NCBI GenBank assembly: GCA_015657535.1 | Contig: JADHZB010000596.1 | Location: 1-64,000, forward strand | Direction of reading: 5' to 3' | DNA from: Nephromyces sp. MM_2019 | Taxonomy: Eukaryota; Apicomplexa; Aconoidasida; Nephromycida | DNA: 64,000 nt | Shown: positions 7,726 through 64,000 of the stretch, piece after piece | Numbering within the stretch: the first letter of the stretch is position 1 | How the letters are laid out: every line of letters starts with the position of its first letter | Translations under genes and position numbers: made by a program | The notes under the pieces: generated by a model | Databases searched by the model: none | Told to the model about the DNA's origin: nothing | What the model saw: only the letters and a program-made list of their open reading frames with translations

Positions 7726-9303
7726 TTACTCTTTAATTGATTCCTTTTTATATCGAAAATCTATTGCTAAACTCCTTGCTACATAATGATTCCCGAACTC
7801 TGAAAGCAAAAAATAATTCATAAACTCGTGCATATAAAACTAAGTTTCGAGTTTATATTGCTTGTGCATCGAGACTACCAATTTTGTCTATATTCATTTT
7901 TGCTTAGAGACGAATTTATTTTATCTAAATCAACAAACTTAGTGTTTAAACTACGATTTACATTTAAACCTCAAATTAAAAAATTCTGAGGTAGCCTAAG
8001 TTCGAGCTTGCAGTCACAGCATAAAATGAAATCTTGTACCTTCTATGAAATTGGTAACTTATCAATGTTAAAGATTCAACTAACCATTTATGGAGAATCC
8101 TTTTGTCAGTATCTTTCCATTTTCCTTCCAATTTGCTCTCCATAGCTTACGTGATTTATCATAATAAACTCCCCTTTTAGCCTTAAATCTAATTTTCATG
8201 TCTAAATCACCACGACTTCCCGCATAGTTTCTAGATGATTCATCATTTTTGATAAAAGACCAAATATAAGCTGAATCATTTGAAATAGATATTGATTCAG
8301 AAGAACTCAAGGAATCAAGTTTATGGTTGGAGCCTAGATCCTCAAAATCTTTAAAACTCAAAATGCTTGAATCTTCTCTACACCCTATTCTTTCATTAAT
8401 TTTAGGAAAGTCAACATCATCCAGGTAATTCGAGCTCGTTTCACAAGAATTATTTATTTCATAAGGATTGTTGGTTTGTCTATAATTTCCAAATTCTCTT
8501 GAATCTCCTATTTCATTGGATTTCATAATTTTTTTAGCACAATTGGCTTCGATATAGTTGCTGATCAAATTGGAGTTATCAATCTCGCTGAAATCAATAA
8601 TTTCATTAGAATTATCAGTTACACTCGAATTATCAATTATGCTCATATTGTTAATGTCACTTGAGTTATTATCGGTTTTAATGGGATTGCTGATATCTTC
8701 AGAATAATCAGTTTTAGGTGGCTCGGAATCAGCCTTCTTATCACTTCTCACTGGGCCATTTATCTTTTTATATTTTTTTCTCTGACATCTTGGCTTTAAT
8801 TTAACAAATGGAGGCTCACTAGAAACTAATTTTATTTTAGATTCGGGGCCTTTAGTTCTAGTTTTCTTGTACTTTTTCGCACTTATTTCAGGCAAAAACT
8901 CATATGATATTGGTGGATTGTCTGAATACCTTCCTAAAGGACTAGTGCGAAGACTCAATTTAAAACTATTATCCAAAAAATTCGAAGCCAAACCAGAAGG
9001 TAAATAACAATGGCTTTGATCAAAATTATTTGACTCTTGAGCTTGAATTCTCAGTTGAGTACCATTATTGCTAGTTAGTAAGGGGTCTTGAAGTGGTGAT
9101 ATTACATCAAGGCTTGTTTCAATGAAGCACTCTAAAGGCATGGTAATTTTTGGACTGAAGCATTTATGGTCGATAGGGGAAATCGAATTAAGAGATACGC
9201 ACTTTTCATTGTTATCTGGAAAGGAAATCACTAATTCTTCGACAATCACAGGAGTTCTAGCTGCCCAAGGATCAACTCCAATTTGTAAACTGCTGCTATT
9301 CAT
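7726..9303 (-). CDS. ApiAP2-type DNA-binding protein with C-terminal AP2 domain
   Basis: Likely sequence-specific transcription factor or chromatin-bound regulator acting in the nucleus. Two exons, 9303-8085 and 7799-7726, are joined in phase 1 (donor GTTAGT, acceptor TTTCAG), giving 430 residues. The AP2 domain occupies about residues 377-425 at the very C terminus. It has the expected strands RGVYYDKSRKLWRANW and GKILTKGFSI, followed after the intron by a helix with FGNHYVARSLAIDFRYK. The first exon alone would stop one codon into the intron and cut the domain, which supports the splice. The long N-terminal part is rich in Ser, Asn, Asp and Ile, with loose repeats of D-N-S type around residues 215-260, and has basic patches (KKYKKTRTKG, RCQRKKYKK) that could serve nuclear import. 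No second AP2 domain or AT-hook was seen. Such low-complexity flanks are common in ApiAP2 proteins. Confidence 0.9.
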
Positions 9304-12300
9304 TTTATTAAGTTCAATAATCGAGGTGCCTCAAAATCTTGGATTAATTGATAGTCTTATGAATAAATTGTATCTTAATTGAAGCAGATTTAATAGCCTA
9401 TCTCTCTCTCTTCTTGTGAAGAAAATAAATTCTAGCTTAGATTCCTAGCCGGAGTCTTTTCTGATACAGTTGACATAAAAAATTAAAAATAATTAATGAT
9501 TAACGCTTGTTTGTAATATAAACCAAGAAATCGAGATTAGTCAGGTGTAATTTTCATCAATATACTTTAATAAGGTTATATAAATTTCTTTCCTTTATCA
9601 TAATTAAACCTTGGTGAATTTTATTGTTGTTGCTCTAAAACACAAGAGGCCACAAAAGCCTATCTAACACAACTATTGAATGTAATTTGACTGAATGAAC
9701 AAAGGTTGAGTGATAAACCCAATTTAAATAAGCCGTACAAATCATAAAGGCATCATATGACAAATTAACGGCTTTCTAAATTACAAAAATCAGAATAAAT
9801 AAGAAATTTATTTTAGTATTTAATAAATACAGGTGGAGTTTCTTAAGTATGATAATGTTAATTTGATACTGCAACATGCCCAAAAGCTTATTTCAACACA
9901 AACTGTGGTTTCAACAATTTGAATTTGATTTTTCTAGTAATACCACTTCACCATAGTCAACTTAACGACTTCAATGAACATTTTTTCTACTAATTGCATT
10001 AAGTAAAAGTGCTGCTAATAGGTAGCTAGAGGTTTTGGCACCCTTTTAAATCGAGGCTCTAAAGTCGTAAAACCAGGTCATTCTAGATTAATTATGGGAT
10101 TCTTTGCTTCATATTGAATTCAACAATTTTTTTAGTTGATGGTTTACAATAAGGTATCTTAATGTTATATTTTAGTCTATATGGTTTACCTAACCTTAAA
10201 AGAATTAGCTATAAAACCCTTTTGCATCCTGAAGTTTTGAATTGCTAGATTTTGAACTCCCACTTTCGCAAAATCAAGCCAAACTTGATAGCTGTTCACA
10301 CAAGAAATATAATTCTTTAACTTATGAATTAATTGTTAAGAGGATAACCAGCTTCCTCGAATTATAATTATAAAAATTCTTTTAAACATAAAAGTTATTT
10401 GAATTATAATTTTTCAACTTATTACACCTCGAGTAAACAAATTTTAAGTCACACATTGTTTCACTTTTGTTTTTCGACAGTTTTCAGTTCACTATATTGA
10501 ATTTGAGGTATACAATAATCCGATTTTTTATGAATAGAGATAACTAGGAATTCTACTTATAAAGAATTAAATGTTGAATCTATACTGAACGTTATCTTTG
10601 CAATATTACCCACTATCTCTTTTTTTTTGCCACATTTCCCTAGTATAACAAATATTTGTGCTAGTTACTATAATAAATATAAGCTTTCAGCTTAGAGTAA
10701 TGAATGTAATTGAACACTGCTTACCTAAAAGGAATCATAAAATAAACTCACTAAATTGATCCTAGTTCCTTATGTCAAATATTTCTGTTATGTAAACATA
10801 CGATTTGAGGGTTTAAAACCTTATTTAATGATATTAGATAGAATTTTGTAAAGTGCTACTATTGAAAGCACAATTGAAATCCTTCAATTTATTTCTAAAT
10901 ATACACAGGTATATTAAGAAAGAGATTGAATATAAAAACAAAAGTTTTATTCATCTAAGTTAGGTTGTAGTATTATTGGTATGTATCTTAAAACTATCAT
11001 TTAGACGCTTTCATTTTAAAAAGATGCTTTATTTTGTTGATTCTTAAGATTTATTTCTCATACCTCACCAATTGAGCTATTGTATACTAATACCCATTGA
11101 AATATCTCAGAGTTGCTTGTTAAGTTTTGATAATATAAACTTAAGTGAGTGTGATACTTTTTGAAATTTTCCTTCATGTATGATATAAACCACTCCATTG
11201 TTAGGAAGCTAACAGTTTATAATTTTATTTCAATTTCCCCCAAAATCTGAAAAGAGGCTGAAACCAAGCTATTCAGTAGTTTGTTTATATTTATTTTAAA
11301 TTGATAACTAAATTTTCATTTGACCACGTAACTGCTAATCTAAACACTGATTTTAATACGCTTCAGGATAATTGTTTAGTGATCTTTGAAAGCTTTACAA
11401 TAAGCCATGATAAATTTGAGATTGTAGTTTTGTAACTATTATTACTAGCTTTCTAATTTTTCGAATTGGAGTTGTACTTCTAGCTGAAAATTTTCCTGCT
11501 CAATTTCAACAGATAAATGCGTTTTTATATAATATCTATCTATTTCTTATATACTTTATTTGCAACGGAAAGATGAGAAAATTGCGTATAACTTCAGGAA
11601 TACAATAAAACATCAACTTAAACCCATAAACTAATCAAAAAACATAAAATTTGGATTAGAATTCATTTACTTTTTAAGTTAGTTAAAATCGAGCTGCTTT
11701 GGTTATAAAATCTCAGCGCAGTTGTGTTCGAAATTTTGGTTCACATTTGATAAAATTTGGACAATAGTTATAAACATTAATTAGAATTCTCATAGTATTT
11801 ATAATAGTGTGAAATATCATGCAAGTTTGTCATGTGAAACTTATGCTCGGACACAAAAGTAAACTAAATATTAAACAACTATTGGATAATTTTAATTTGT
11901 TAAATTTTATTATAAAACTGTGCTGTAAAGGAAGGTAGGAAGGTGCTGTACCAATTTTAACTCATAATTTTGTTAACAATAGATCACAGCATAGGTTTAT
12001 ATTTATCAGTTAATGTTATCAACCTTGTGCCTTATGCCTGATAACAAGCGTAAGCTTTATCTCACCTACATGTAATATATTCCTCTTCAGTGTATAAAAT
12101 TAGGTTGAAATTAAACTGTGTGCGCAAACATAAATCAACTTTAAGCATAAATGCTACAAACTTGCACACATCACATCTTTACAAATAGCGCAAGGTTAAG
12201 TATATATACATATGCAAAATAGATTTGCTTACACAACTATATATAAATAGCCATATACAACTCACTCATAGACTCCTACCCAAACCACACACAAATCCAC

Positions 12301-40664: not shown

Positions 40665-42197
40665 TTATTCTAAAAAAATTTGGTTGTTGAAGCTATTTGA
40701 AAAATTCATAGCACCTACGTTATAAAACAGGTTCGATGGAAAATCACTATTGTAGGTTGAATTTTCGCCAAGGTATGCATTTAGAGAATTGAATCGAAAT
40801 TTTTGCAGATCATGATTCGAGAGTTCAGATGGATTTTGCGGACAATTGTCAAAAGGGGATTCAAAGAACGATGAGGGAGTCGATGTTGTATTTATATCAC
40901 ATTCTTCAGTATTGTTGTGAATCGAGCTAATGCTCGGTGTTTGAGTATTAGAATTCATCAAAGATAGTAATTTTGCTTGTGGATCATCATCTTGCGGAAA
41001 GAAAAATGAGCTCGATTCACTAGAACTCTTTGGTGTAAAAGGAAAATTCGTGCTATTAGCTTCATCATGAGAAAGGGCAAATAAAGATGATGAAAATGGA
41101 CTGTTTATATTTTGTGATTGACTCGAGAATAATTTATCTGCAAAGTTCAGGTCATTTCTTGAGTTATTATAATCTGAATGTCTATAATTCCTCGTTCTCA
41201 AGTCATTTGAGCTTTTAAAGAGGTTTTCCACTAAATGATTCATTGAAAAACTTGAGTTGTCATCAGTTTCTTTAAAATTCTGATTATTGGTGATTTGCGA
41301 ATGATTTCCTGCCAATTGATCAAATATTGGATCGTGGTTGGGATTGTGAAATGAAATTTTATTGGGACGCTCTATTAGCGTTTGCATCGATTTGTTCGAT
41401 TTCATTTGATCATTATATTTAGCCGAGTTCCAATTTAAAGAAATAGGGATGTTTGTGTAAGTGCTCTCTACTACAACTCTGTCTTCATTTGGATGTGACA
41501 TTATATTTAGAACTGAAGAGTTAGCTGAAATGGATGAATATGGGCTTAAAGTGTAATTCGAAGTTTTAGGGGTTTCTGTTGAAAATTTCTTGGAGCACGG
41601 AGAGAAATTCTGGATGGGTTGACTCTTTTTTTTGAGTTTATCCTTATCCTTTTCAGTCCATCTATAGACTCTTTGCTTAATTTCATAATTTCCATGTGCA
41701 TGGCGACAATTTTCGTTTAAAGGGCATTTACCTTGTTGCCAATGTACGCAAATAGCTGTTTTAAAGTAATCACATGTATGGCGAAGTTCTTGATGTCCAT
41801 GTGCATACCTAAAAATTGGTTGTAAAGTATGTATCTTTTAATATGGTGCTAATTAAGGCAGTATATATGCAGTTTGGAAAATTTATCTTACCTACAGTTT
41901 GGAATTCTACATCCACCCTTATTCTTCCACTCACAACATAGCTGAGTCTTTGACAAATCAGTAATGGGCCGGATTTCATCTTCAGAGTGGGCATAAGAGC
42001 AATTTTCTCCTCGGGAACATACATTCTATAAGTAAGGGATTTAATTAATGATTACATTAAACACAGAAGTTAAATCTAATATTTTTATGAAGTTTTTTAA
42101 TTACATTCAATAAAAAAGGACACATTTTAGTCTTGAAAAATTGATCATGGTGTGCTGTCCTAAAGGGTGCTGGAGTTTGCTGAATTGGTATCTTCAT
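40665..42197 (-). CDS. Triple CCCH zinc-finger protein, RNA-binding type
   Basis: Probable RNA-binding post-transcriptional regulator. Exons 42197-42105, 42025-41892 and 41808-40665 are in phase and give 456 residues from MKIPIQQTPAPFR. An AG just upstream of the ATG suggests a 5'-UTR intron or a further coding exon. Three CCCH fingers sit at the N terminus: C26-C34-C40-H44 (CPFLLNNVCSRGENCSYAH), C61/C62-C70-C75-H79 (CCEWKNKGGCRIPNCRYAH, split by an intron) and C96-C104-C110-H114 (CVHWQQGKCPLNENCRHAH). KTKMCPF, DLSKTQLC and DYFKTAIC leaders precede each finger, an arrangement common to a conserved apicomplexan CCCH family. The rest, about 340 residues, is Ser, Asn, Phe and Pro-rich low complexity, with clusters such as SSSESSSFFFPQDDDP. 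No enzymatic domain is visible. Confidence 0.9.
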
Positions 42198-46054: not shown

Positions 46055-47995
46055 ATGGAAAAAATATGGATGTTTTTGAACAGAAAATATGGGCATACTT
46101 CAGCCTATAAGGAATTCTCACAATTCACAAAAAAGTGGGAAGGTGAGCTCAGGGGAATTAAAAAGAATCCAAATTTTTTCTATAAAACTGGACCCTCTCC
46201 ATCATATCGGAGTGGTCACAGACAGACATCCACCCAATACACAACTGGAGCCCTTAGACCATTCATAAGGAAGTTTGACCAGCATCTTTATACAATGCAA
46301 AAGAGCTATTCAAAGCTTGAGACAAAGATCTACCTTCAATATCGGCAACGTTTTAATTCGCCATCAGTAATCATAAAAAACAACGCTTTAATCAGCACCC
46401 TGAAACAATCTGAAATTTATCAAACCGCAGTTAGGATTTTGAAACAAACAGGTTCACCAGCAACCATTTCAATCATTATAGCTAACAGTGCTGTTTTCTT
46501 AATGTGGTTAGTATAGATTAATGTGGGTTTTTTTTACCAAAACCAATGTAAACCATCTCCAAACTTTTTCTCTAACAGGCAGATTGCTACACCAAAGAAA
46601 TACAATGTTTACACAGGCCAAGTAATTAAAATTTGATTATTATGACTTCTCATTGATGATGTTAAGGTTTTAAAACTTTTCAGGTAGTCAATCAAAGCCT
46701 CATTTCATATGATTTTCTAAGAAAGTAAGTTTATAATTTTGGTTTATATTGATACCTCGTTTGAAAGTCACATAAAGCAATAAACATCAACTTACTATTC
46801 CTTACGTTATATGTTTTGAATTATCTTGACATATTGTTTGTATAATACTAAGATTCTTCTCAATTTGTATTTATATATATGCCAATATACTTTTGTTTTC
46901 AGCAACTTTACCACAAGCTGGGATCATATTACTAGAGGAAGGATCCATTCAGTAATTTTAGCGAATTTTAGCCATTTTGACTTGAAAGTAAGCTCAGACT
47001 TTTTAAAAGTCTATGCAATAATGAATGGGACGAATTCTGTATCTTTGTATATAGAGTTCATATGATTTTGATATAGATACAAGCATGTTTAGGCAAGATA
47101 TTTGATTATATTTTCAACGAAATGATCACGGTTTTAACGAATAAGCTTTTCTACTTCTTTTTCTGATTCAGCACTTTTTTTTTAACATGTTGACAACCTA
47201 TTTTGCTGGAAGTGCCTTTGAATCCTTTTTTGGTTCTAGGGCTTTGGTTATAAGCTATTTGGTAATTATATAGTCTTCTAATTATTACAATCCTTGCAGA
47301 CTGACAAAATCATCAATGCAATAACTTCAGTTTAATGGCATTTGCTCAGTTGTTATGCAAAGCCTATTTTTGAAGGCTGAAGGACACTCAAATATGCCTA
47401 TGTAAAAAAAAATACATTAATCTCTTCAAAGACTTTTGACCTTATAACTAGAATGAAGTTTAGGAAGCAAGATCTATTTTTTTTATAAAACATCCCCTCT
47501 TTCATGTTTTTTAATCACTAATGTATTTTTATAGCATATTCTTTGTTGATTCTCCAGCTTAGGAGCTAGCGGTTCGATGAATGGAATCCTAATGATGGTT
47601 GCCATTTATCAACCAATGATGAAAATCTTCTTATATGGAATTATACCTGCACCTTTGGTAAGTATTTTTCTTACCAATAAAAGATATAGAAGTTAATACT
47701 GGGAAGGGTAATATTGGATAGATTTTAAAAACTTAAATCAACTAATCCCTATTTCAAATAGCCAAAATTAATCACTATCATTTATTGATTTAATTTTAGT
47801 ACCTTATCGTTGGTGGGATCTTTTTATTCGAATTTTTCGCTTCACGCCATATTCAAGATAATTCTGGTATTGAGTTTTGAAAATTTTGATTTACAGAATT
47901 TTACAAAACTTTTTACCCTTGTAGCACATGAAGGACATTTGACGGGTATGCTAGCCGGAGCCTTCTTATATGCCTTAAAATTCCGTCGATTTTGA
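46055..47995 (+). CDS. Rhomboid serine protease, mitochondrial PARL/ROM6-like
   Basis: Intramembrane serine protease. Exons 46055-46506, 46579-46621, 46684-46724, 46903-46987, 47172-47261, 47331-47401, 47558-47657, 47800-47866 and 47925-47995 are all in phase and give 339 residues. The first 150 residues are basic and soluble, as expected for a mitochondrial precursor, and one membrane helix near 130-150 (TISIIIANSAVFLMW) precedes the core. The core has FSHFDLKHFFFNML with the oxyanion His208 and Asn212, the catalytic Ser265 in LGASGS, and the catalytic His321 in HLTGMLAGAFL. The lone extra helix before the core and the short C terminus point to the mitochondrial class rather than the adhesin-cleaving ROMs. 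The 71-base exon 47331-47401 is required to keep the frame between FGSRALVISYL and LGASG. It supplies a loop with QSLFLKAEGHS. Confidence 0.9.
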
Positions 47996-50650
47996 GACCA
48001 AGCCTTCAAAAGCTGTGGGAATGTACCAAACATCAAGTAAAGCGTGCAAATCTGCTTAAAGTTATTCATTATTGAAACTTTTAAAACTTGGAACATCTTC
48101 ACTTTTTAAAAAGTCATAACAAAACTATATTTACATATCATTTTTAAAGATAAGAACATATAAAGATTACCCAAAAGAGCTTTGACTCTTTTACACTTTT
48201 AGTTTGAAAAGTACACTTTTTAAGCTAAACTTTTAATTATTTTGTCAATATGATTCATTGTACCAATTTCAACATTAAATTTAGCTTATGTCCAACCTAA
48301 GCTCATTTAATAATTGATCTTTACTTCACTTCTACCAACAATAGGATCTACACTTTTTATTTATATGTCCAGAAATTATGTCTAATTATCCCTTAATACT
48401 TTTTCAGAGTCACATAAATAGAATTAACAACATGTTACTCACTTGGTAAGGTATCTGTGTGTGTATCTAGTACATCATCCATTAAGCTATGGTGCAAAGG
48501 GTTATCTCAAAACCTCATGGTATTATACCTTAGCTTTATTTTATGTTTGCTTACTTTACCGAGTTAGTATTTGATTACTATACATAACAAATTCACTATT
48601 AGTATCGTATTTCTGATTCGATAAGTTGTAGAATTATATTATTTATTGGTGCTAGCTCTATATTTTAAAATAATCTCAATAGCTGCAAATTGGTTTTGTA
48701 AACTAATAAAAATATATCTTGAATAAACTCTTAACACTAATATGACTATATTACAGTTTCATCTTCAAATTGATTTATAACTTCCTGAAAGCTAACCAAT
48801 TATATGTTTACTTTGTAAATTCAAGTATTCAATATATGTATATTTACTACTTGTTTAACTGTCTATGCAAATGTGTATCACTAAAAAATGTTTTAATAAA
48901 AAAGTGTCAAAAAGAGCTAAGGGTTTATTGTCTTGTAATATTTAAACAATACCAACAATAGAGATATGTATCCTAAACAACCTGTAAATGAATATGCATA
49001 ACTCTTACAACACCTATGAAATTTAACATCATTTATTGTATGAGTAATGCCTTAGGTATTTAAATTTGACCAGCTATGTCAATAAGATAAAACTTTAGTA
49101 ACTTCAATGTAAACAAGCTTAGATGTGATTTCTTGCACGCATAATTAAAGCCACGATTGTATATGAACCAAATCATACACTCAAAACACTCCTAGCTCTG
49201 TTATATATTTTCATTTGCTTATTTATTTCCAACAGTGCACACACTTCAACCGACAACTTGTATCAATCATTTTGATTGATATAAAAATCAATCTATATTT
49301 TACATGCAAATACTTAATTCGATAATAAGTCTTATGCCCACATTTTCTCGCGATTTTTTATATAAACTATCCCATGACATAAAACACAAGTCTGTCTAAA
49401 TCATGTCTTTTTTCAAAATATGTTTATTCGCTTTAGCAAATATATATTTTGGTTTTCGCTTGCATTAAAGTTTTATAAGATATTATTTTACTTTCATGCA
49501 AATAGGTATAGAACACTCTTTATAACTCACGGCAAAAATATCTTCGATTTGTACAAAAATAAATGTCTCAACTATTGATATCTTGAATAATTTTTAATAA
49601 TTTATACTAATACTAAATAATTTTTGTTGAGTAGCATATAACGACTTAATTGCCGAATACCATTGTAAACTACCTAATTAAGGATCATTCACCGTAATTT
49701 CATTCGAAAGCAACATAACATGTGCAAGGCTGAGTAAATTGACCCATCATTGCTTAGGTATGTTTGTGTAATCAAGTAGATATTGCACATTTGTATATAT
49801 TTACACCTAGCAGAGGTTAGGTATATACCTCATTAATTTAATTTGAGTGTTTTAGATTTAGATATATTTATGAAGTCATCATTTAGGCATCTTTGTTCCG
49901 CACACATAGTAGTAAGTCAATTTTTAATTGCAAAAAGCGTACATATTCCAAGTTACACACATAACATCTATTGTACTCTATAAATATAAATTCAAATTGA
50001 CTTTAAGTTAGTCGCATAACATGAGCTCAATTTTAAGCTCTCAATAGTATCATATCAACTTTGACCAATATATAAAACATCAAATCACCTCCTTTACAGC
50101 CCTTCATGAGAGCTACATACAAAGAATGCTTCTTAAGATATTAAGGGCTCGTTTTTACAGCCACATATACACCTTTTAAACCTTCGGGAAATGTGTTTAT
50201 ATTCTATATACCAGTACACAGGCTCATACCTCCTAAGCACCAAACCACAAATTGCTACACTCTAAGCTGACATCCAAAATCCTATAGACCCAAAATTGCT
50301 GCTAAAAAACAAGTAAAATATATAAATTGAACTCAAAACGTTTCAAAAAAAGCCAAACACCCCAGATTTTTAACTAAAACATGCAATTATTTTTAGGCAG
50401 AACAAAGGGGTTACACAATAAAATCAGACCACATGTAAACATAATACACATTTTTAGTAAACATACACACACAAACTAATCACATATAATTAAGATGATA
50501 ACATATCATTCAGCACACTCATTAAATTTTAGACTCGAATATTACTCTAAAGCTTTTTAATGTTAAAATTCCTTAATAACTATACGAATTGAGCAATTAA
50601 GTTTTACTAATATTTTAATATGCTTACTCTCAGTAACTTCATTTTAAAGG
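47996..50650 (+). other. Intergenic, 2.65 kb with CA-rich 3' part
   Basis: Spacer between the rhomboid gene and the IRE1-like gene. From about 49900 to 50520 the + strand is C/A-rich with ACACACA tracts. This resembles the presumed leader before the CHERP-like gene and probably marks a transcribed 5' leader. No coding exon could be supported. Confidence 0.45.
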
Positions 50651-53600
50651 ATGGAATCATTAGTTCATACAATCCCAAGGGCCACAGGATCCCATTTTAC
50701 AAAGAAATATACTGAAAATGGAGCTCTTGACGGCGTTAAAAAGCCATATATATTGAACGAAACAAAACTATATGAAGATACGAATGGTTCTTTTGCTACA
50801 CAAATCAAATTTCAAGGACGATCAGATAATAAGGGTAGGAACTCCTATAATTATCCAATTTTTGACATTCTGACTCCTAATTTACTTCGTCTTGCTTAAA
50901 CAGGTAGAGCAAAACCTGTAAACAATGTAGTATCAAGCAATTTTCCCTTAAATGGTCAAATATCCACCTTAAGCATACCACACTTAAATAGCTCAAAAAT
51001 TATCACACCTCCCAATAATCTCTCTGAGTTTTCAAAAATCCATTTCCCCATATTACAAACGCAATCAAACAAGCCCTTGTTATCGAGCCGACAGCAACCA
51101 CCACCTCCATATATCCCACTGATCAGAAACCCTGAGATTAAGCCAGAAGTGCTATTTGGAAACTCATTGAAATACCTTTTTCATTCGTTCAAATTAAACC
51201 ATGACATTAAGGAGTATGATCCCTACAAACCCTATAAAACAAAATACCGTAATAAATATCACAAAGTTTTGGTTAAGAAATTCTTCATTCCTCGTTATTC
51301 AAGGCTTACTAATTTCGTTAATGAAGTTTATAAGTATATTTCTTTATCTAATGATCGCTTCCCCGTCTTAATTAGGGATATCAGCTTTGAACCAACCCCA
51401 AAGGTACACACATATATACACTGATAAGCAAGACCTAGAAATTTTGTTCATTCAGATCTCATAAATTAAATTCAAAACTCAACACCATATTTTCATATCC
51501 AAATAGTCCCTGCAAGTATTAACATAGATACAAATTGATTATAATTCTCATTCGAAGTGCTAATTATTCATATTTATTAGAAACATATTCCTCTAGAATA
51601 CTTGTAATAGCCCAAAGCTTACAAAATTTTACATTAATATTCCTCAGGGCGATTCTATGGGTGAAGGCTATATTTTATTTGCTATTACGGAAATTGTAAC
51701 ATGTGATTACGACAAAACTAAACCTATCGACAATATCAGTGCTTTACCCAAAGGTAACAAGCCTATATTCATTTCTGGTATCAATATTATCTACTTTTAA
51801 TCCACATCCAGTGATACAGGATACTACAAAGTCTCTCATATTCCAAGTTAAGTCTTTTCATGAAGTCACTCAGACCGGCCACACTCAAATTCATCCAGCT
51901 AAAATTATAACTAGTTCGAACTATAGCCTTAGTATTGGAAATTTCATAGATAAGATTAGCTTTATAAAGATATTCGATGGTTTAAGACCTGGCACAACTA
52001 GACCAATGGGCGACGCAAACGAGCTGCGCGAATTTATTGATGAGGTTTGACTCGTGAATTTCATGTACATAGCAGAAGAAGAATGTAAACTTACTCAGTT
52101 TATAGATAAGATTTATTAATACACCAAAATCTTGGATAAATTATATGAAATTTTTTATTTCATCATGTACTTATATTGCCAAGACTACTTATTTTTCAAG
52201 AAAATATCTTTCGAATGAATTAAAGGGCTATTTAAACAAAGCTAAGGAACTTTACACAGAATTTATAGAACAACAACCTAAAACTAGCCTAACTGAAGCT
52301 ATAAACCAATTAAACGAGATGATTTCAAGAAATGTTCCAAGCGATTACACTATGAAATCAGGAGATGTCTTTGCTACTGGTAAAAAGCTTATTTCATACA
52401 ATTTCAAGATACAAAACGCTGCTAATCTTAGGTGCTATTATTGTGAATTATATCGAGAAGCTCTTTGGTTACAATGATGAAAAAATCAAATATGACAATG
52501 TTGACCAGGTTATCTTTCACGAATTTCTAAGTGCTCCTTTATTTGTCAGATAGCCAAAAATAATTCGTAATTCCTTTCAGGTGGAAAGATTTTTAAAAGA
52601 AAATAGTTTTTGCTATCTTTTTAGAGATTTGATTAAGCGTATGCTGAGTTATCCAAGGTTGACAATTTTCCAATGTAATTGCCACCCATACCTATGGACA
52701 GGAAATGAAATTGAGACCTATTTGGCGAATGTTTTAGATCAACTTTTGGTATTTAGATCTTGCAATTTTTGATTTTGTTTTCTTTTCTTTCTCGAAAAAT
52801 TTAACATTTTTTTTCTAGTGGCCAGCTGCAACGGGATGCAATTCTATGGAGGTTATTTGGGATAAAAATGAATACTTTTCTTCATTCAAGGAAAGTTGTA
52901 CCGACGCCTCAGTTTACTATGATAAATACCCCTATTTAAAAGACATTTACAAAAAGTTTATAAGCTTACCTGATCAAGTATCAAATCGTTCTAAAGTTTG
53001 TCCAAAAATACAAAACTTTGTACAGTTTCTTGTTGCGCTAAAGAAAGATGTAGTAAAAAGTTCTGGTTTTGGTATCTTTGTGCTTTTGTGCTATGGTTCC
53101 ACTTTAGGTAAATCAGTTGATGTTAGCTAATAAGATTGATATATTGGATTTTATTTCTCTTCGTGCTTTAATCTTTGGTATATTTTACATCAGGGGATCG
53201 CAGTAACTCAGATATCCGTAATTTAGCATACAAGATTTTCGAAGAGTTGCCCTCCCTTTTTCTAGAAAGCCTTGATCTATTCTTGTTCCCTAAAGTTGTT
53301 GAATCTAACTTTGAAACTAGAAGCACTAATAAACTTTTTTTCTTTAGATCAATTAATAAAATCAGGAATAGACTGAACCATCAGGTATTTAAAATGAACT
53401 AGGGGTTGTAAAACTTGATCCAAATTTTGAAAAATACTTATCTAGAATGAATTATCAATGAAAATTTTTCATTTCATATAGATTTTTCAAATTAGTGGTA
53501 AGGAGGCTGTCAATGAGAATGGAGTCCATAACATGACTACGCATTCAAATGGATATCCTACTATTGAACCTGATAATTGTTTTGAAACAATTAAAGAGAT

Positions 53601-54354
53601 TGCACCTAAATTGGAAGACTCAAGTACTGAAGAATCTGCAAATGATGCTCATGTCAGCGGAGAGTCTTTACCGGATGAACTTGCTAATGTAGCTGAAAAA
53701 TTACAGATCTATAACGAACAAAGTGATTTGCAAGAAATTGACTCGAAATACTCACACGCAATAGCGGACTGGAACCTTTGTATCTCAGCTGTTCCACCTC
53801 CCTATAATGAAAAAAAGGAGAGGCAACTCCGCAAAGTAATAAAGAATTCGGCACCCATGTTGCCAAAAGGTACTGTACCAGATCATCTAAAGTGGTACGC
53901 TGATGTAAATGACGAATTTTTTGAAGCTTGGCTGAAGAGACTAGCTTATTTACATGTAAAAGACAAAATGGCACCACTGGATCAGCTATCATCAATGAAA
54001 ACTTATAACAAAGTATGTCAATTAGGAAGTAAAAACTCGAAAATATTTTTCTAAGACATTTTTTAAGGACCAATTAAATGATCCAGAAATTAATTTTAAT
54101 AATTGACCAATAGACCAATTCCTGTTAAAATAATTTCTATCGATTTTCTTTCCACTCAGGAGACCATCCTTCATACTACCACTGATCCTATACTTAATAC
54201 AATTCAACAAAATAAACATAATACCACAAACTCATATGATGAAAATAGCAAGGATACATCACGTTGTTACTCAATAAATTTTTTAGCTAGAGGTTTACTA
54301 CTATACCGTCATTTTTATGAGCAGTTGGTAATTAATCGAACGACTCGTAAATGA
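50651..54354 (+). CDS. IRE1/RNase L-like protein: degenerate pseudokinase followed by KEN-like domain
   Basis: Eleven exons, 50651-50834, 50904-51403, 51648-51753, 51812-52044, 52106-52379, 52432-52508, 52581-52748, 52819-53107, 53194-53384, 53482-54012 and 54160-54354, are in phase and give 915 residues. Residues 1-150 are low complexity with PPPPYIPLI; no signal peptide or membrane helix is seen. A kinase fold spans about 175-500. VLVKKFFIP (Lys186/187) and Glu202 match the IRE1 N-lobe (VAVKRILP). HTQIHPAKIIT at 287-297 replaces HRDLKPxNIL. IGNF at 305-308 replaces SDFG. YTMKSGDVFATG at 422-433 matches YTVDIFSAG, and DLIKRMLSY..HPYLW at 474-497 matches the IRE1/RNase L kinase end. A KEN-like region follows (about 498-645). 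In it, IQNFVQFLVALKKD stands where VRDLLRAMRNKKHH is expected, so the RNase Arg, Asn and His appear lost. An acidic extension follows to 915. Probably a scaffold or regulator; the relationship is inferred from motif order only. Confidence 0.7.
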
Positions 54355-54845
54355 TTTTCTTTTTCCCTATTAACCCTATATAAATTGGTATTAAATTAAA
54401 AACGTGCTTCAAATACAACTTGGAGTCCAAAATTTTTTTTACTAGAAAACCTAGCTAACACGTCTTAACATTGATCTTTTGATAATGGATAATTCGAAAT
54501 TTCAGCTTAGATATCTGCTGGTGAGATGTTAAAAAGTAAAAAAATTTATAAATTAGCTTTTTTTATTATTACTCGTAAAACTGACTCCTTTGACCATCAC
54601 ATCCATATTTTGGTTTGTGCCATGATAAGAATCACCAGTTTTAATCTTAGCAGATATAATATTTCAATAGATATAATCAATAAAGATTATAAACACTAGG
54701 TAATGCTAATGATCAACGACTTAACTCATGATATAAGATCTATGATGCTAAAAATTATTAGAGTAACATATAAGAAATTGTCAATATAGAACTGATGAAG
54801 TTTTTAACAAAAACATCAACTTCTAATAATTAACTTGATGCTGCT
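54355..54845 (+). other. Intergenic, 491 bases
   Basis: AT-rich spacer between two plus-strand genes. No motif recognised. Confidence 0.45.
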
Positions 54846-56543
54846 ATGTTAAAACGCAAAGTAAAGAGATTACAGTTAGGAAATCATTGCAACATTTCGA
54901 AGCCAGCATGGGATACCGATATAAAAACACCAAAACTATTTGACACAAGACTCAAGGATCAAATAATTAGAAACTCGTATAGTATCATTCCCCATAGAGA
55001 ATATATTAGGAATATACAGAACCATAAGAATTGCAACGATAAACCCTGTCGTGGAGATTCGAGCCAAAAGTTTTCGAAATGTAAACCTTTCTTGTCATAT
55101 ATGCAAAGCACAGCACGCTCACTCGAAAGCTTATCTGGCACTTTTAAACTGTATGAGAATTCTACTCATGCAAGCCACCCTTACAGCCTAAGCAAACCTA
55201 CTAGAAGTTATAGCAAAAGCTGTATAATCCCTAAATTTGGAGAATTTAGTAATATATTATCGATAAAGAAGAAATCTTTTACATTGCCCCAGACAATTAA
55301 GTGGTCGCAAGATCTTGAAAAACAAAGTAGGAATAAATTAAATCAACCTGAAAAAGATAACAAACACATAACATCGAATTCTTGTTCTAGTCTTACAAAT
55401 ATTTTTAAAATTTGTCAATAACTAACTCTTAATACATTTGCTATTGCTGCATCAATTAATAATAATTATAATCTAAATTGAAGTTTTTCTCCTCTAGGCA
55501 CTACTAAGCAAAGCTACTCAATACCCCAAATTCATTCTTACGCAAAATTAAACAAAATTCAAAAATCTAAATTGACCAGAAAACCAGTGAATATTAGCCA
55601 TGAGACCTCTGATTACTACCCAATTCTTAATGAAACTCAAAGAATGAGACATTCAAGTAATTCTGCTTTTATGAGTTTGATGAAAGACTCTAGCAAGCCT
55701 AACTTTAATAATCATCAACTTAATCTAGTAGAATTTACTGGAAATAGCGAAGCAATTGCAATTCCAAACAATTCCCTATCTAAGCAGTTATACACTTCGG
55801 GCAACTCAAGGGCAAACAAAGCATACCGTAGGCTTGAATGCAAGAATTCTTCTAAAAATTTAGAGACACCAATTATTCACTCACAGGCTAAAGCAGTGAT
55901 TTCATCGAAAAAGTTTCACAGACCAGCTTGGGTACCAAAAGAAACTGAACTTGGATATAATATCTTGACTATGAAATCCGAAGATATTGCTTCTTTAAAA
56001 AGGTCCAAAGTAATCGAAAAGTATAGACCATTGGAAAATGAGTTTGAGGTAGACCCGACAGCAAAGATTTGTGAGAAATCTAATGAAGTATCCAAACCAA
56101 TCATTGTAAAAACTAGTGCAGAATTTTGTGGAGATGGTTTATACAATAGCTCAAAACAAAATAATTTATTATCTGACCTTAATGACTCGATAAACAAGTC
56201 AAATCTAATATTTGATGACCAAAGCACGATAAAAGAGTGGAGGAGTTCTTTCTCTGATTCACAAAGCTCAAACTCAACAGATAATCAAAGCTCAATTTCA
56301 ATTACGAATTCCGTGGTTACTAATGACAAAAGTGGTACTTATTCTACTATTGATAAGGATTACAGGTATGATGTTTTAAAAGGTCTCGAGTTTCCAAACT
56401 TTATAAGACATTATTTTAACAAGTTTGAAGGTCTAATAGATAAGTATGCAACTCAATTGATTAATAAAGAGTATGAAAAAATGTTATATGAGTGGGCACA
56501 ATTCAATTATTCTAAGAATCGAGAAATTTTTCAAGGATTATGA
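54846..56543 (+). CDS. Basic Ser/Asn-rich protein of unknown function
   Basis: Two exons, 54846-55413 and 55498-56543, joined in phase 1 (donor GTCAAT, acceptor CTCTAG), encode 537 residues. Reading through the donor would stop two codons later, so the splice explains why both frames are open. The protein is basic, rich in Ser, Asn, Lys and Tyr, with no membrane segment or signal peptide. Two short similar motifs occur, KPAWDTDIKTP near residue 19 and RPAWVPKETELGY near 300. PAW-type motifs are common in cytoskeletal and flagellar proteins of protists, but that is a weak lead. The last 60 residues are better ordered and helical (LKGLEFPNFIRHYFNKFEGL and NKEYEKMLYEWAQFNYSK). No family was recognised. 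The gene is convergent with the RCC1-repeat gene, with 207 bases between stops. Confidence 0.7.
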
Positions 56544-56750
56544 TCTTTGTAGTTTGTTTCAGAGTTGCAAGTTATAATAAATTTGAAACATAAAAATATA
56601 TCTTAATATATATTTGATAGTTGTAGTCGGTCTTTCTTTAAAACAATTCGATTTTATAAATAATTATAATAATAAACTAATTAGGGGAGTATTAAAATTT
56701 AAAATTAACAAAGCATGGATAAAAAGTAAATTCTAAATTAATTGCAAGCA

Positions 56751-59036
56751 TTATTGTGAATTGCCTTCATTTTTGGCCAAGGGTTCTACCAAAGCCATTG
56801 TATGTTCACCACCACAGTAAACAGAAATTATGCGATATGAGAGTTCATCAAAGAACTTGACTTCAACAGGTAAATTTCGATATGTTGCCATACTTTCAAT
56901 GAAACCTTCACGCCCGAGTTGGCCTTCTTGACCTCTACCAAAAACAAACATCCTTCCATCCTCAAGTATGATAGCAGTGTGGCCACCACCACAGCTTACA
57001 TCTCTAGCCCTATAAATATTGAATTGAAAGACTCGTGTTGGATGATTTTATCTGAATGAACAGAAATATACTTATAATTGCTCAAAGCTTCAAGTTTCTT
57101 AGGGAGCGACTTATCATTGAAATCTCCATGGCCACATTGGCCCTCACGACTGAAAATATTTTTGCAATGAAATTAGATGTAAAATATTTAATTATACAAA
57201 AAAATTCTCACTTGTAACCCCATAAATATATTTCTCCGTTTTCATCAATTGCTCCCATATGGAAATCTCCGCAAACAATTTTCTTTATAGTGTAGGATGA
57301 CAAATTCCTAACCAATTTCGGTTCTGCAACACGGCTTTGCTGTTTTCCATGGCCTAATTGGCCATAGCTGTCCAAACCCCTAATCATGTGTTAAGTAAAA
57401 TAATAATCGAACCAACATAATATGGGTGTTTGTTGCGCTGAATTTAATTTCATGGGATAATTAATGTGAAAAGTTCTCATATTTACCATGTGTAAACATT
57501 TCCATCTTCTGTAAGTATAGCTGAGGAAGTATTGCCACAGGAGATTTGGGATATTCGACCCTTTACCATGGATGTATCCAACTTTATTGGAGATGGAACT
57601 GTTTCCGCATATGATGGCCCTAATAGTTAATCCAGTGAAACGAATAAAAATTAATCAAATTTCAGGCAGGTGTTAAGGCAGATGAAACGAACCTATTTGT
57701 GAGTCTATATTTGAGCCCCATGCAAATAAGGATCCATCCTTGGATAAAGCCATCGAGTGATTTTTACCGCAAGCAATCTGAATTGAATAGCTTCAATAGA
57801 AACAAGTATTGATATTTGGAAAAGCTTTTCCGTTTTAACCTGTATCACTTCTTCATTTTCTATCAAGCCAAAGATTCTTCCAACCTTCACAGCCATTGAT
57901 TTTTGTCGTCCAGACCAAATCGATACAGGATCACTATTTTGATTATCTGGAGTTATAAGATAAAACAAACTCAGACATTCTATAAAGTCTACTTTAAAAA
58001 AGGGCTTGTAAATAAGGACTTATTTATGAATTGTTATCATTAATCATTGATCGAGTACTAAGGGTTCAAATATAACCTTCTCTTCCGCATTGATGAGTAC
58101 TTTTGCTTCCCCAAGAGTATACGTGTCCTTGGTCAGTGAGAGCAAGCATATGATTGTAGCCTGTAGCTATCTAGCAGCAATTAATTTTTATTAAAGTCAA
58201 ATTTTGAAAGCCTAAGTAAAGCAAAGAAATTTTATTTCAGTTCTTACTTGGGTGACCTTCAAATTTTGATCTTGAAGAGCTTCCACAGACCTGGGAGTAG
58301 CTTGAAACGACCCCGAAACCAAATCATGACCAAGCAAGTTGTCTTGTGCCCTTCCCCATACGAAGACCTTTTAAATAGATTGTGAGATAGATGTATAGTT
58401 AGTTAAAAGAGAAAATTCTAGGCAAATGAATAATGAACACCTTTCCTTTATTTGAAATACAGCTTGAATGGTGTTTCCCCGCGACACATGATGTGATCCA
58501 CTCGCTAGGGTTTAAATTAAATTCTTTAATCATAGTCGGCTTTGACTTTCCGTTTGTTTCTCCCTGATGTAAGATATATAATTTATTTGAAAGTTGGCTT
58601 TGTAAAAGAATTAATCAGTTGAATTTTCAAACAAAATTTAAACGAGTCAATAAACTGTACCCACGTTGCCCAATTGTCCATTCATCCCGTTTCCCCAGCA
58701 AAAAACCGAGCTATGAAAAGGATTGTCACAGTGCACAATATTTAATCCATCATTCTTTTTTAATAGAAGAGGGGATAGGCAAAAACCTGCCGTTAAAAGC
58801 CATCTTAGATAACTTTTATAGTGACTATGGTTATATGATGTAGGAAGTGGATTGTGAGTGCTTTTAATTGTTTCTGAATTCAATCTTAGAGCATAGAAAT
58901 TGTTAGTAGTATAATTTATTGGATAGAGTTTATTCAAGGAAGCTTTTAGGATATTAAAAATACTCTCAATTTCAATAAGAGCTTTTGTGGTGTTTGTTGA
59001 GTTAGATAACCTGCTCACTATAGCATAATTCACCAT
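56751..59036 (-). CDS. RCC1-repeat (seven-bladed propeller) protein
   Basis: Ten exons from the 5' end: 59036-58665, 58563-58441, 58367-58248, 58170-58077, 57946-57840, 57777-57693, 57619-57487, 57379-57212, 57149-57072 and 57009-56751. All phases agree and give 512 residues. After an N-terminal region of about 105 residues come RCC1 blades with the repeated pattern V(F/Y)xWG..xxGQLG: FCWGNGMNGQLGNG, VFVWGRAQDNLLGHD, VYSWGSKSTHQCGRE, LFAWGSNIDSQIG, VYTWGLDSYGQLGHG, IYLWGYNREGQCGHGD and MFVFGRGQEGQLGREG. They alternate with strands of IACGKNHSMALS or VSCGGGHTAIIL type. The fold is certain; the partner is not. RCC1 itself is a Ran exchange factor on chromatin, while RCC1L-type proteins are mitochondrial. 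The N terminus (MVNYAIVSRLSNSTNTTKAL) has few acids at first and could be a targeting sequence, but a helix with Glu follows, so location is open. Exon borders often fall between blades. Confidence 0.9.
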
Positions 59037-60487
59037 TTTCTACGAAATTATGGGAATATATCCTTTTCAAGAGACTTTTTATAAAGTGTTGTGTTGGGGG
59101 TGATTATTGAATATTGGTTTTTTTATTTAATTAATACATACGAGCTGACAAGCTTAGCTAAGATTTCTGTTAACAGTGATGTTTGCTTCGATTTATTTCC
59201 AGACTTAATTACACCTCTCTATTTGTAATAATCGAAGGTATTTGTTAATTTTCGTATTATCTTGAACTAGCTTCTACGAGTTACACTTAACCTGAAGCTA
59301 ATCATTTTCAAAGAGCTAAGACAACTAAGTATATTGGTTTCACTTTTTTTAATATTCACAAAACTATTTTCTTCAATCCTATAAAATGTTAGCCTAGTTT
59401 TACGGCACTATTTTCATCAAAATATTTTCACATTCAGCCAGCTATAAAAACTCATAGGAGATTAAGCATAGATTTATCTATATAAAAATTAAGCACGCAA
59501 TGTAGGAACAAAAAAAATATGACTTTTAAACTAACATTTTGAAACTAACATTAGCCTGAAAAACTCTGATTAATTATTAACTTTAAATTTAAATATAAAA
59601 TTGTGCATTCGATTCATAAGGTAGATACTCAGAAATACTATCATATTTTGGTTATATTGATATTTTTTGTTACAATTTGTTTCAAATAAATTCTTTTATG
59701 GGAAATTATACTTGAGTTAAAAAGCAATTAGTAACCCTGAAAGGTTACAACTAACGAGCTACTTAGTGTGATGGAAAAATGTTTAATTGAAAATGGCAAA
59801 AGTAAATAATAAATCGGGATATTTTATGCTTTGTTTTCGAATAAGATATCAATAAGTGGTGAAAATAAGCCTATCCTTATTCACTGACATTGAAAACTTG
59901 ATCATTTAATGATCTAAGTCTTCAAGCAATTTACCAAATCTAATGTGAGACCAATCAAAACAATTGATGCGTTATAAAAAAAATGTATTAAGGTCATGAT
60001 AGGTTGGGTAAGGCGTAAAGGCTTGGATAAAAAAAGTAAAAATGTAATCAGAAAACTTTTGAGATTAAAAACACCAATTTTGAAACTGTTAGCTTTATCT
60101 ATGTAAGATTATTGCAATTCCGTAGGATTGATATTTTGCCTACGATACAATGTTAGAAATGATGTCTTGTCTACAATACATGGTTAGGAATGATGTTTTG
60201 CCTACAATACACGGTGATGAGATGTTGTAATTAGAAATATAATTATGTTGTTGTGTTAATAGTATATATATATATATATTATACTGAGTCAGATTTAGTG
60301 TGATTTCTTATATATATAAGTGTTTATATTTGGAGTAACAATTTCCAGGTTAATAGCACAAGTGTGAATTTAAAAATTTTTGATAGAAGTTAATCTCCCT
60401 TATGACTTTATGATTGATTCAAATTAGAAAGACATGTCAAAGTTAATAATTGATTGAGGAAGATATCTTTATAATATTCTATTCGTG
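59037..60487. other. Intergenic, 1.45 kb
   Basis: This lies upstream of the RCC1-repeat gene and downstream of the transporter gene, both on the minus strand. It is AT-rich with no supported exon, and contains the 31-base tandem repeat at 60129-60221 and a short TA run near 60262-60279. Confidence 0.5.
60129..60221. repeat. Three tandem copies of a 31-base unit
   Basis: Units at 60129-60159, 60160-60190 and 60191-60221 share TGATxTxTTGxCTACxATACA. Copies differ at several bases. They are non-coding and lie about 270 bases beyond the stop codon of the transporter gene. Confidence 0.85.
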
Positions 60488-61705
60488 TTATTCCATATCT
60501 TCCATTTCGCCCATCTCTGCAGGTGGCTCTTCAAAGGGGGGCTGAAAAAAACATGAAATAGTTTAAAGCCTTTAGTATAATATAATTCAAATTAATATAA
60601 TACTTACAGGTGCTTCTTCCTCTTGATCATAACTCGATAAAAGGGCTGTTGTTCCTGCATTTTGCTGCTCAATAGGATTAGATTTGCCCTTAGGTTTTGC
60701 AATGTACTGTGAAAATTCTGCAGCAGCATCTTCAGCATTCTTAATGGCATCTATCGCGCCAATACTTCTCCCGAAAATTACAAACACAATAGCCAACCAC
60801 CCTTGCCAGCCAGGCATACCGAAAGTTAACCCAATGCAAAAAACTAAAAAGATTGAAATAATTTCTAAAAATCTCCAGGGTGCTTGCCCTGTCCTTCTAA
60901 TCAATCTATTTGAAATAATATTTTTTACAAAAGGTAGAGCACCAACTGCAACTAGGCATCCCCACATCTGCCATGTGTGTAAGCTAAAAGGATTAGTAGG
61001 CATCATTGTGAATACTCTCCATTCACCAAAAGGAATCCAAAAGAAGGGAAGTATGACAGCCCCAATAAGGTGCTGATGATTATGAAGAGCATTTCCTTTC
61101 CCATCAACTGTATGCATGACTTTTTGTAAGAATCCAGCTCTAAACAATGCTGCAAAAAAGGCATAAGCTAATGCCCAAGGTAATACGCTTGGGCCCATTG
61201 TCTTAGAATCTGTGCATCCCAAAAGAAATGCAACAAATAAAGCTAACATTGATTGCCACCTAAGGCCCATATACTCTTCACCACAACCAACAAATCTTGC
61301 CACATGATGTAAGATCACCGTAAAAGAAACCACAACTGGGAAAGCTGCGGGCGTAGGAGTTTTAGATAGCAATACATTAGCTAATGCAACCATAGCACAA
61401 TAAACTACCGTAGGAGCCGCTAAATCCTTAATTAGCTGCTTATTTACGACAACTGAGGGAAAATAAGAAAGTTTTGGGAACTCTTGACCAACATTACCAA
61501 GAACCCATGCCATTACTAAGCCTTGCATTAATTGCCACCATGTAACAAATAATGGGAATGGTATCACATCTAGTAATAATCGGTAAATAACAAATACATT
61601 GCATAATGTCAATAATAAAAACAAAACTTCTGAAGTAAGAAGCTCAGGATCCTTGAAAAACCTCTCGGCATCAGGAATTTTTGGAAGATTTTTACCGGTT
61701 ATCAT
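60488..61705 (-). CDS. Multi-pass nucleotide-sugar-transporter-like protein (drug/metabolite transporter fold)
   Basis: Probably an antiporter carrying a nucleotide sugar into the Golgi or ER. Two exons, 61705-60608 and 60541-60488, joined in phase 0 (GTAAGT..CAG), encode 383 residues. About nine or ten hydrophobic helices span residues 25-330, with short basic loops. Segments typical of the DMT/nucleotide-sugar transporter group are TWWQLMQGLVMAWVLG in an early helix, KTPTPAAFPVVVSFTVILHH in the middle, and the repeated small-residue helices near LPWALAYAFFAALFRA. The substrate cannot be read from sequence; GDP-sugar carriers are one possibility. The C-terminal tail is acidic and Pro/Glu/Met-rich (PPFEEPPAEMGEMEDME) and is added by the second exon. 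Without splicing the frame would end in VSIILI. The main exon is unusually long for this window. Confidence 0.75.
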
Positions 61706-64000
61706 CCTGGTTAAGAGATTTTATCAACAAAGAGAATATATATCTTCAAAATAAAAATTTTCAGCTATTTTATACCTTAATATCTCAATATCAAGATTTA
61801 TTTAGCTACTATTTCGAAAAAAATTAGTATGAAACTTAAAAATAAAAGTACAAGGAAATTTTGCTAATCTTAAATGTAAAATGAAATTCTCCAAATCGAA
61901 AATTCCTCAGACGAGCACATAGATTTTTCTTAATTTCCAAAATAATAATAAATTTCTACTATATCATTCTTTGAAAAATCATTCCAAAATTAAAAACTTA
62001 TTAAGCTAAATTGATTAAGTAAATCCTCATAAAATGAGACTAATTAATTGAAAATTTTAATTTAATAAATGAAATCTCAAGTGAAATTTCTATAAAACTA
62101 TTGAGATAGCCATAAAGTGATACACTCCTTGGAAATTAAACAACTATGAAAATTGATTGGGAGTGGAGATTTTTTATTAATGAAAATGAAGATTTAATTA
62201 TGATAATAATAATCTTTATTAATATTTAAAACCCTCAGTTAATATTATTTTTAAAAATGGTCATTTGAATTTTTTTCCAAAAAAATTATCAGTTCATTTG
62301 CTGATAAAAATGTATTTTATATTTAATTAACAATTTCCAACTCAAAAAGCAAACCTAATCAATCTAGTAGCATAGCTAATAGCTCTTTCAAAATAAAGAG
62401 GAGCTTTCTTTAGATATTATTGAATAAGTCTTAGAATTAAAAAAATTGCATAGAATGTGAACCTTTATTTATTTAGCATTTCTAATTTCAATTTGAGCAT
62501 TGAAAATTTCAACAAATTTGCACATTCTAGTTACATTAATTATATATACATTAAATTTGGTTGGGTAAAAGTATAAGCTAGCAATGCTTAACAAAACTTA
62601 CACATATTTAAATTGTTTTAAAAAATAAGATTAAAATATATTAAATAAATTATATATATACCTATATACATTGATAAATAACATTTCAGTGGTTTTGTAT
62701 GAGCTAATTTATACTGAATAAATAGATAAACTTAAATCTTAATTAAATTTGAAGCAAATTACCTTGCAACTATTGAGTTTCTAATTTTGTAATTAAGTAA
62801 TGTTAGCAAAACCTAGCCATCACCTTGACACTGAATTCATTTATACTCTAAGTTTAGTCTTGTTTATGAATTCAGATATCGAGCAAAGACTTGAGTTTCA
62901 ACTTTGTTGATTTTTAAGTATCTCAGTAGGCTTATGTAGTCTTGATAGAGCTTTATGAATTTACAACCATTCATTTACTATGAGATTTGGTTTATTTTGA
63001 ATTATACTTAGTGTAAGTCTATTAAAAAGAATTTATCTGACTTGGGAGTAGATAAGTCTACTTATTCAATCACCTGTAGATAATTTTGGGATTTGAGAAA
63101 AAAGTCAAATTCGTTAATTAAATGGATGATTTTAAAGCATAACGTTTATTTCTTGTACTACTCATAATTTTTTAATACAAATAATTTCTTCAATATATTA
63201 CAAAAATTCTTTAATACTCAACTTTGTAGATTGTATAATATCCTTTTAAAAAATTATCTGTATGATGTTTTTGAAAATTTTCTATCCGTTACAATCATAT
63301 TCAAGAGTTCTGATAATGAATTTAAAATCAGCTCTATTCGATGCTTAAATAAAGATACTCGAAAGTTAGTCTGATGCAAAATCTTGTTTTTTAGCCTCCT
63401 GCTACGAAGGGGTCAATAGTTGATCTTTTTCTTCCAACAAAATATTAGAATCAAAGAGACATGTGATTTGCTGTCTATTCTCCAGCACCAGTTAATTTGA
63501 AGTAAATTTTTTTATATTCAAATATATTTTTGAAATTTTGTATGAAATTGTGTAAATATTTTCCATAATCCTTGTTTAAACACTAACTAGAGGATATTTA
63601 GAAGGGAGAGTGAATTCGTCAAGTTTCAAGATAGCATCAATGATTGAAACATAAACTTATAAAATTCATGTCCAGCTGAAACTATTCAGAAAAAATTGAA
63701 CTATTTCCAAGCTGATTTTTACGCAAAAATAAATTAAGCATACCCAATTCAACTTGCATGTTTATCAAAAATTAAATTCACTGATGATTTATTTATTTAC
63801 AAAAGTACATGAAATTAACGTCCCGCATGATACAAATTTAACAAAAATGTTCATTGGAATATTCACCAATAACGTTTGGAGTAATTATAGAATCTCCCAA
63901 TCCCTTCGGAGTTTCACACCACCTAGCTAAAATTTCTTATTTTCAAACTCTAAAATACAATGTATTTATAATAATCAATTTATAATCATTAGGAATGATA
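61706..64000. other. Gene-free AT-rich stretch at the right edge, 2.3 kb
   Basis: Upstream of the transporter start. No exon with matching splice sites and open frame was found on either strand. It holds the promoter and leader of the transporter gene and possibly the flank of a gene beyond the window. Confidence 0.45.

Follow-up and report, generated by a model that had tools for sequence, protein, structure and literature searches.

A soluble protein, probably a pseudokinase, with a conserved C-terminal module encoded in a Nephromyces assembly

The 64,000-nucleotide stretch of contig JADHZB010000596.1 from the Nephromyces sp. MM_2019 assembly (GCA_015657535.1), referred to below at its full length as the window, carries on its plus strand a gene that, when rebuilt from the DNA, runs from an ATG at 50651 to a stop codon ending at 54354 and consists of 11 exons encoding a protein of 889 amino acids with no internal stops (Table 1). 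The 10 introns are all of the GT..AG type, measure 52-244 nucleotides and have mutually consistent phases (1,0,1,0,1,0,0,1,0,0); the guanine-plus-cytosine (GC) content is 35% in the coding sequence vs 30% in the window. Two splice choices are ambiguous in the window alone: intron 4 has a weak-looking acceptor (52183), and for exon 8 the donor could be either 53108 or the likewise frame-compatible 53072; 52183 and 53108 were favored because the orthologue described below fits them. The gene is real. Its 11 exons with consistent phases had been proposed in a sequence-only reading of this DNA and were recovered on rebuilding, and all the motifs quoted in that reading were located in the 889-residue protein. 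Besides the motifs listed in Table 1, YTMKSGDVFATG lies at residue 396, DLIKRMLSY at residue 448 and FVQFLVALKKD at residue 555.

When the assembly itself was searched with tblastn, the self-match was accompanied by two matches on contig C616, on the minus strand and collinear with the query (residues 704-802, E = 1.2e-6, and residues 268-325, E = 0.0036); local comparison within a 9.5 kb stretch of that contig gave matches in the exon 4 region (E = 1e-6) and in the HPxxW region (E = 0.005). Window introns 2-7 (phases 0,1,0,1,0,0) and intron 8 (phase 1) all have phase-matched counterparts in the C616 gene (7/7 compared, with places judged by eye), an agreement that is not a fully independent check because this gene was spliced manually, guided by the window gene; extra introns interrupt the stretch that matches window exon 8. 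The orthologue protein used here is uncertain in its first exon and at the exon boundaries G-H and H-I, and it omits a candidate exon located between H and I as well as a portion of exon J. Alignment of the kinase parts of the two proteins yielded a score of 119 (z = 16.4), with 0 of 500 shuffles as high. Judged by the motifs, which occur in the same order, and by the phase-matched introns, the resemblance of the two genes is more than chance.

The two contigs share a block of rhomboid-like, pseudokinase, RCC1-repeat and transporter-like genes (46820-61720 in the window and about 8000-49223 in C616), whose coordinates and strands would fit a single inversion of the segment carrying the rhomboid-like and pseudokinase genes. 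Within this block, the rhomboid-like gene matches Pfam Rhomboid under the cut-off (E = 0.053), and the transporter-like open reading frame (ORF; 377 amino acids, window 60590-61720, minus strand, labeled by eye), which is 60% identical to its C616 counterpart, matches no Pfam family (E threshold, 0.01). Elsewhere in the assembly, three rpoB genes (contigs C1112, C318 and C1009) lie in DNA of 16-18% GC, contain in-frame TGA and show mutual identities of 53-58%; we read these as apicoplast genes of at least three apicomplexan species, which points to DNA of mixed origin in the assembly. Because the assembly is apparently mixed, the GC content differs between the window (about 30%) and C616 (about 38%) and the four-gene block is shared, the C616 gene is probably an orthologue from a second species rather than a paralogue; alternatively, it may stem from an old segmental duplication within one species.

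The C-lobe of the orthologue scored 35.2 bits against Pfam Pkinase (PF00069; cut-off 31.7 bits), and a longer piece scored 34.2 bits; the best stretch covers positions 178-263 of the 263-position profile, i.e. it extends to the profile end, and the orthologue segment ELIIGMTQKDPRARL..HPIFW falls inside this match. A profile made from the pair of proteins, suboptimal around beta-3 given that MAFFT shifts this region in the pair alignments, matched 158 PDB sequences, the best 60 of which all carry kinase names (lowest E, 5e-4, for a MAP kinase). The order of elements, from a candidate beta-3 lysine through the catalytic loop, DFG, APE and helix F to a final HP motif, is that of the eukaryotic protein kinase domain; unlike in that domain, HRD and DFG are replaced in both proteins and APE also in the window copy, which by itself falls under detection.

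The position of HRD is occupied by HTQ in the window protein and by HCR in the orthologue, that of DFG by GNF and DLS, respectively, and that of APE by SNE in the window protein, whereas APE is unchanged in the orthologue. The corresponding kinase segments are HTQIHPAKIITSSNYSLSIGNF, SNEL, GDVFATG and DLIKRMLSYPRL..HPYLW in the window copy and HCRIHPNNICVDENLNIKLADLS, GSWVAPEML, ADVWSAG and ELIIGMTQKDPRARLGLKECLHHPIFW in the orthologue. Since the HRD aspartate is missing from both copies, its loss before the two parted is suggested; judging by the APE and DFG segments, which are also lost, the window copy is further degenerated than the orthologue. The candidate beta-3 lysines, in VLVK (183) of the window copy and in VTIK of the orthologue, each lie 43 residues ahead of the shared intron 2 (hand count). 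The window protein does not begin like a signal peptide, and hydropathy analysis of its 889 residues found no hydrophobic segment of membrane-spanning length (highest Kyte-Doolittle mean over 19 residues, 1.43).

The longest segment of strong conservation between the two proteins is a C-terminal module of 62 residues (740-801), which is 40% identical between them, compared to 26% overall, and in which ISAVPPP, ER..R, P.G.VP, WYA and F..WL.R are identical in both copies. This module, passed over in the sequence-only reading, has no Pfam match and a best PDB E value of only 0.31; searched against the protein database, the orthologue module gave no match at E up to 1 (103 candidates). A DNA pattern for the module core found only these two genes in the 48.3 Mb assembly (1 match for the reversed control pattern), and no third orthologue emerged from the module and pattern searches.

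Because the orthologue C-lobe passes the Pkinase cut-off while HRD and DFG are replaced in both copies, we consider the window gene more likely than not to encode a soluble pseudokinase scaffold of no demonstrated family, which would have kept the fold of eukaryotic protein kinases, in the C-lobe at any rate, and lost their chemistry. In such a protein, the pseudokinase domain would be a non-catalytic binding platform holding some partners, the conserved C-terminal module would hold others, and the protein would link both sets; the N-terminus and the acidic linker are probably disordered, and the location is probably cytosolic or nuclear. Several observations weigh against this interpretation. 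The scaffold role is deduced from the loss of the catalytic motifs. The candidate beta-3 lysine is kept, and nucleotide binding or an unusual activity may persist. Searched by itself, the window protein matched no Pfam family (E threshold, 10) and no PDB kinase (one chance match, E = 0.25), so that its kinase fold is carried by a single orthologue. An AlphaFold2 single-sequence model of residues 137-648 (512 residues) reached a mean predicted local distance difference test score of 34.2 and a predicted template modeling score of 0.22, too low for use. Finally, an RN...H motif at residue 642 has the spacing found in the KEN domain of IRE1, an arrangement that, counted post hoc, also arises in 0.26% of the shuffled versions of residues 472-648 and in 5.2% of those of the whole protein.

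A further and more tentative proposal is that the two proteins represent a pseudokinase family of a poorly sampled apicomplexan group, which would combine a eukaryotic protein kinase fold bearing HxxIHP in place of HRD with the ISAVPPP/WYA module; this possibility accords with the finding of no relative in the collections searched, and, in view of HPxxW and of RN...H in the window copy, descent from IRE1 retains a low probability. The protein database returned no match for window residues 140-700 at E up to 1 (7366 candidates) or for orthologue residues 300-800 at E up to 0.1 (7993 candidates scored), negatives that are weak in that no control shows apicomplexan proteins to be represented there. 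Pattern scans of genome contigs (327 matches) and viral contigs (165 matches) yielded no relative, NCBIfam gave only two matches for the orthologue pieces (E = 0.088 and 0.11, regarded as chance), and the remaining parts of four of the five pieces compared to Pfam gave chance-level matches only (E = 0.033 to 0.15).

Among established families, a SCYL-type or similar pseudokinase, i.e. a membrane-trafficking adaptor in which a kinase-like domain is followed by HEAT-type helical repeats, is an unlikely identity for the window protein. SCYL proteins are soluble pseudokinases, and part of residues 472-648 could, by eye, consist of HEAT-like helices: FVLLCYGSTLGDRSNSDIRNLAYKIFEELPSLF, to which a segment of the orthologue corresponds, resembles a HEAT unit. 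However, no Pfam repeat match was obtained, and a provisional sequence of the SCYL2 C-terminal part gave no significant score (z = 1.4 and −0.4; profile probability <1%). With no SCYL structure among the best 60 of the 180 PDB rows for the SCYL2 query, the SCYL comparison is without a yardstick.

The sequence-only reading had described an IRE1/RNase L-like architecture, with a dead kinase fused to a dead KEN fold, that could be a remnant retained as a dimerizing scaffold or else a new pseudoenzyme family. The first part of this description stands insofar as the Pkinase match of the orthologue and the motif substitutions indicate a kinase-fold protein devoid of catalytic motifs, and the lack of a signal peptide, membrane helix and luminal domain was confirmed by hydropathy and Pfam. 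The identity as such, which draws on short motifs with no KEN similarity beyond HPxxW, finds no support, and we regard it as quite improbable. Several observations speak for it. The HPxFW motif at the kinase-KEN junction of IRE1 and RNase L is present as HPYLW and HPIFW, respectively, at the end of the C-lobe in the two proteins, and GSWVAPEML of the orthologue, including its W, resembles GTxGWxAPE of IRE1. In the PDB search with the orthologue kinase and the following stretch, IRE1 accounted for 16 of the 35 rows, a set that reflects repeated structures of a small number of proteins; its best row (E = 0.091) ranked second, preceded by phosphorylase kinase (E = 0.083). With the pair profile, IRE1 appeared at row 31 of 158 (E = 0.012); since DAP kinase 1 alone fills many of the higher rows, this corresponds to roughly sixth place among distinct kinases, with two MAP kinases, phosphorylase kinase, DAP kinase 1 and Ssp2 ahead. 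When the orthologue query ended just before the W, by contrast, none of the 18 PDB rows was IRE1, these rows vanishing because the W was removed together with the residues after it. By the truncated query and the pair-profile rank, the kinase body is not closer to IRE1 than to other kinases; the match needs the W and what follows.

Nor did a KEN domain emerge from the region beyond the kinase, in which the two proteins barely align (z = 2.3 after HPxxW). Neither the window protein nor the separated post-kinase pieces of the pair matched the KEN family PF06479, even with an E threshold of 10, and these pieces compared to the yeast and human IRE1 KEN gave z values of 1.4-1.8 in shuffle tests, which became −0.6 to 0.97 once HPxxW was removed from both sides. 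Profile comparison of the two post-kinase regions gave probabilities of 5% with IRE1 (21 columns) and 19% with RNase L (20 columns), and 0.09% and 0.48%, respectively, without HPxxW, compared to 97% and, without HPxxW, 93% for the control comparison of RNase L with IRE1. The dead KEN fold is thus unsupported by Pfam, shuffles and profile comparison. The profile negative is not a strong one, and a degraded KEN could be missed, because the same method fails to link the two orthologues (31.6% with HPxxW, 0.56% without); the post-kinase region evolves too fast for profile comparison to rule on KEN.

In the same reading, FVQFLVALKKD had been paired with the KEN active-site helix, for which no comparison provides backing, and the KEN arginine, asparagine and histidine had been taken as missing. 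R-N-x-x-x-H is the spacing of these three catalytic residues, is visible in the IRE1 sequences examined and occurs once in the window protein, as RNRLNH (residues 642-647, about 53366-53383, at the end of exon 9), outside any recognizable KEN. When residues 601-720 are aligned locally with the yeast KEN, the best alignment crosses this motif and sets it on the catalytic helix (FPKVVESNFET-RSTNKLFFFRSINKIRNRLNH on FDKTFMDNLERYRKYHSSKLMDLLRALRNKYHH), but with a score of 25 (z = 0.04) it is no better than shuffles, and the best human KEN alignment lies elsewhere. Moreover, the motif stands 175 residues after HP, vs 79 in yeast IRE1, the sequence downstream of it is not KEN-like by eye, and there is no RN...H in the orthologue pieces examined. 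The ankyrin repeats that form the N-terminus of RNase L have no Pfam match in the window protein. Across the assembly, PF06479 was not found, a result of little weight for intron-rich genes given that the control genomes and PF01896, a family expected in any eukaryote, were silent too; a yeast IRE1 query produced 34 matches in the assembly, none of which extends beyond query residue 297 of 417.

That the protein is an unconventional active kinase or a nucleotide-binding protein, acting by means of the kept beta-3 lysine without HRD and DFG, is very improbable: VLVK and VTIK are equidistant from the shared intron, and the orthologue keeps the catalytic-loop asparagine (HPNN) and the aspartate of ADLS, but the HRD aspartate, the catalytic-loop asparagine, the DFG aspartate and APE have no equivalents left in the window copy, and no glycine loop is apparent by eye in either protein. 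PAN3, which has a PAM2/zinc-finger N-terminus, a coiled coil and a C-terminal knob, and whose degenerate catalytic loop IHPAKIIT resembles, was rejected: unlike PAN3, the orthologue keeps the APE, helix F and DPxxRL..HP of ordinary kinases and matches ordinary Pkinase to the profile end, PAN3 is absent from all 35 PDB rows of the orthologue and from the best 60 of the 158 pair-profile rows, and its hallmark domains have no Pfam match in the window protein or pieces.

Table 1 Exons, motifs and conserved module of the window gene (positions in the window).
Feature	Positions	Strand	Description
Exon 1	50651..50834	+	aa 1-62; N-terminal region; no signal peptide (hydropathy)
Exon 2	50904..51403	+	aa 62-228; PPPP-containing stretch, then start of kinase-like domain; intron 2 has counterpart in orthologue
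VLVKKFFIP	51266..51292	+	residue 183; candidate beta-3 strand with lysine
Exon 3	51648..51753	+	aa 229-264
Exon 4	51812..52044	+	aa 264-341; catalytic-loop and DFG region; orthologue match
HTQIHPAKIIT	51880..51912	+	residue 287; replaces HRDLKPxNIL; HCRIHPNNICV in orthologue
IGNF	51934..51945	+	residue 305; replaces DFG segment; LADLS in orthologue
Exon 5	52184..52379	+	aa 342-407; covers the P+1 region and the beginning of helix F; acceptor consistent with orthologue exon D
SNEL	52211..52222	+	replaces APEM; GSWVAPEML in orthologue
Exon 6	52432..52508	+	aa 407-432
Exon 7	52581..52748	+	aa 433-488; final part of kinase C-lobe, including DLIKRMLSY..HPYLW
HPYLW	52683..52697	+	residue 467; HPIFW in orthologue; IRE1-like motif common to both proteins
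Exon 8	52819..53107	+	aa 489-585; stretch claimed as KEN in the sequence-only reading
Exon 9	53194..53384	+	aa 585-648; last residues KIRNRLNHQ contain RN...H at residue 642
Exon 10	53482..54012	+	aa 649-825; acidic linker and C-terminal module
Conserved C-terminal module	53755..53940	+	aa 740-801; ISAVPPP..ER..R..P.G.VP....WYA.V..F..WL.R
Exon 11	54160..54354	+	aa 826-889; includes stop codon

Two other ORFs of the window, both on the minus strand, resemble known domain families. The ORF at 8080-9330 ends in a partial AP2 DNA-binding domain (31.0 bits vs a Pfam cut-off of 33.3) and is, in our reading, a putative ApiAP2-type gene; the ORF at 40665-41837 is rich in asparagine and serine and contains a CCCH zinc finger under the Pfam cut-off.

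According to a 2021 review (PMC8200641), P. falciparum and T. gondii lack an IRE1 homologue, and a 2019 paper (PMC6699899) likewise states that IRE1 is not encoded in Plasmodium. In the main text of an apicomplexan kinome survey (PMC3239843), the terms IRE, SCY1, VPS15, PEK and pseudokinase do not occur, and the titles and abstract openings among the matches listed in the literature on IRE1 in Apicomplexa, SCYL and KEN describe no such protein. A remnant of IRE1 at this locus would, if true, bear on the loss of the IRE1 branch in Apicomplexa, but membership in the IRE1/RNase L family and the presence of a KEN domain are not supported by the comparisons made here, and the evidence falls short of such a conclusion. 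The case also calls for caution, in that the HPxxW motif alone should not be read as IRE1. What the locus adds is an orphan protein, probably a pseudokinase, with a conserved C-terminal module.

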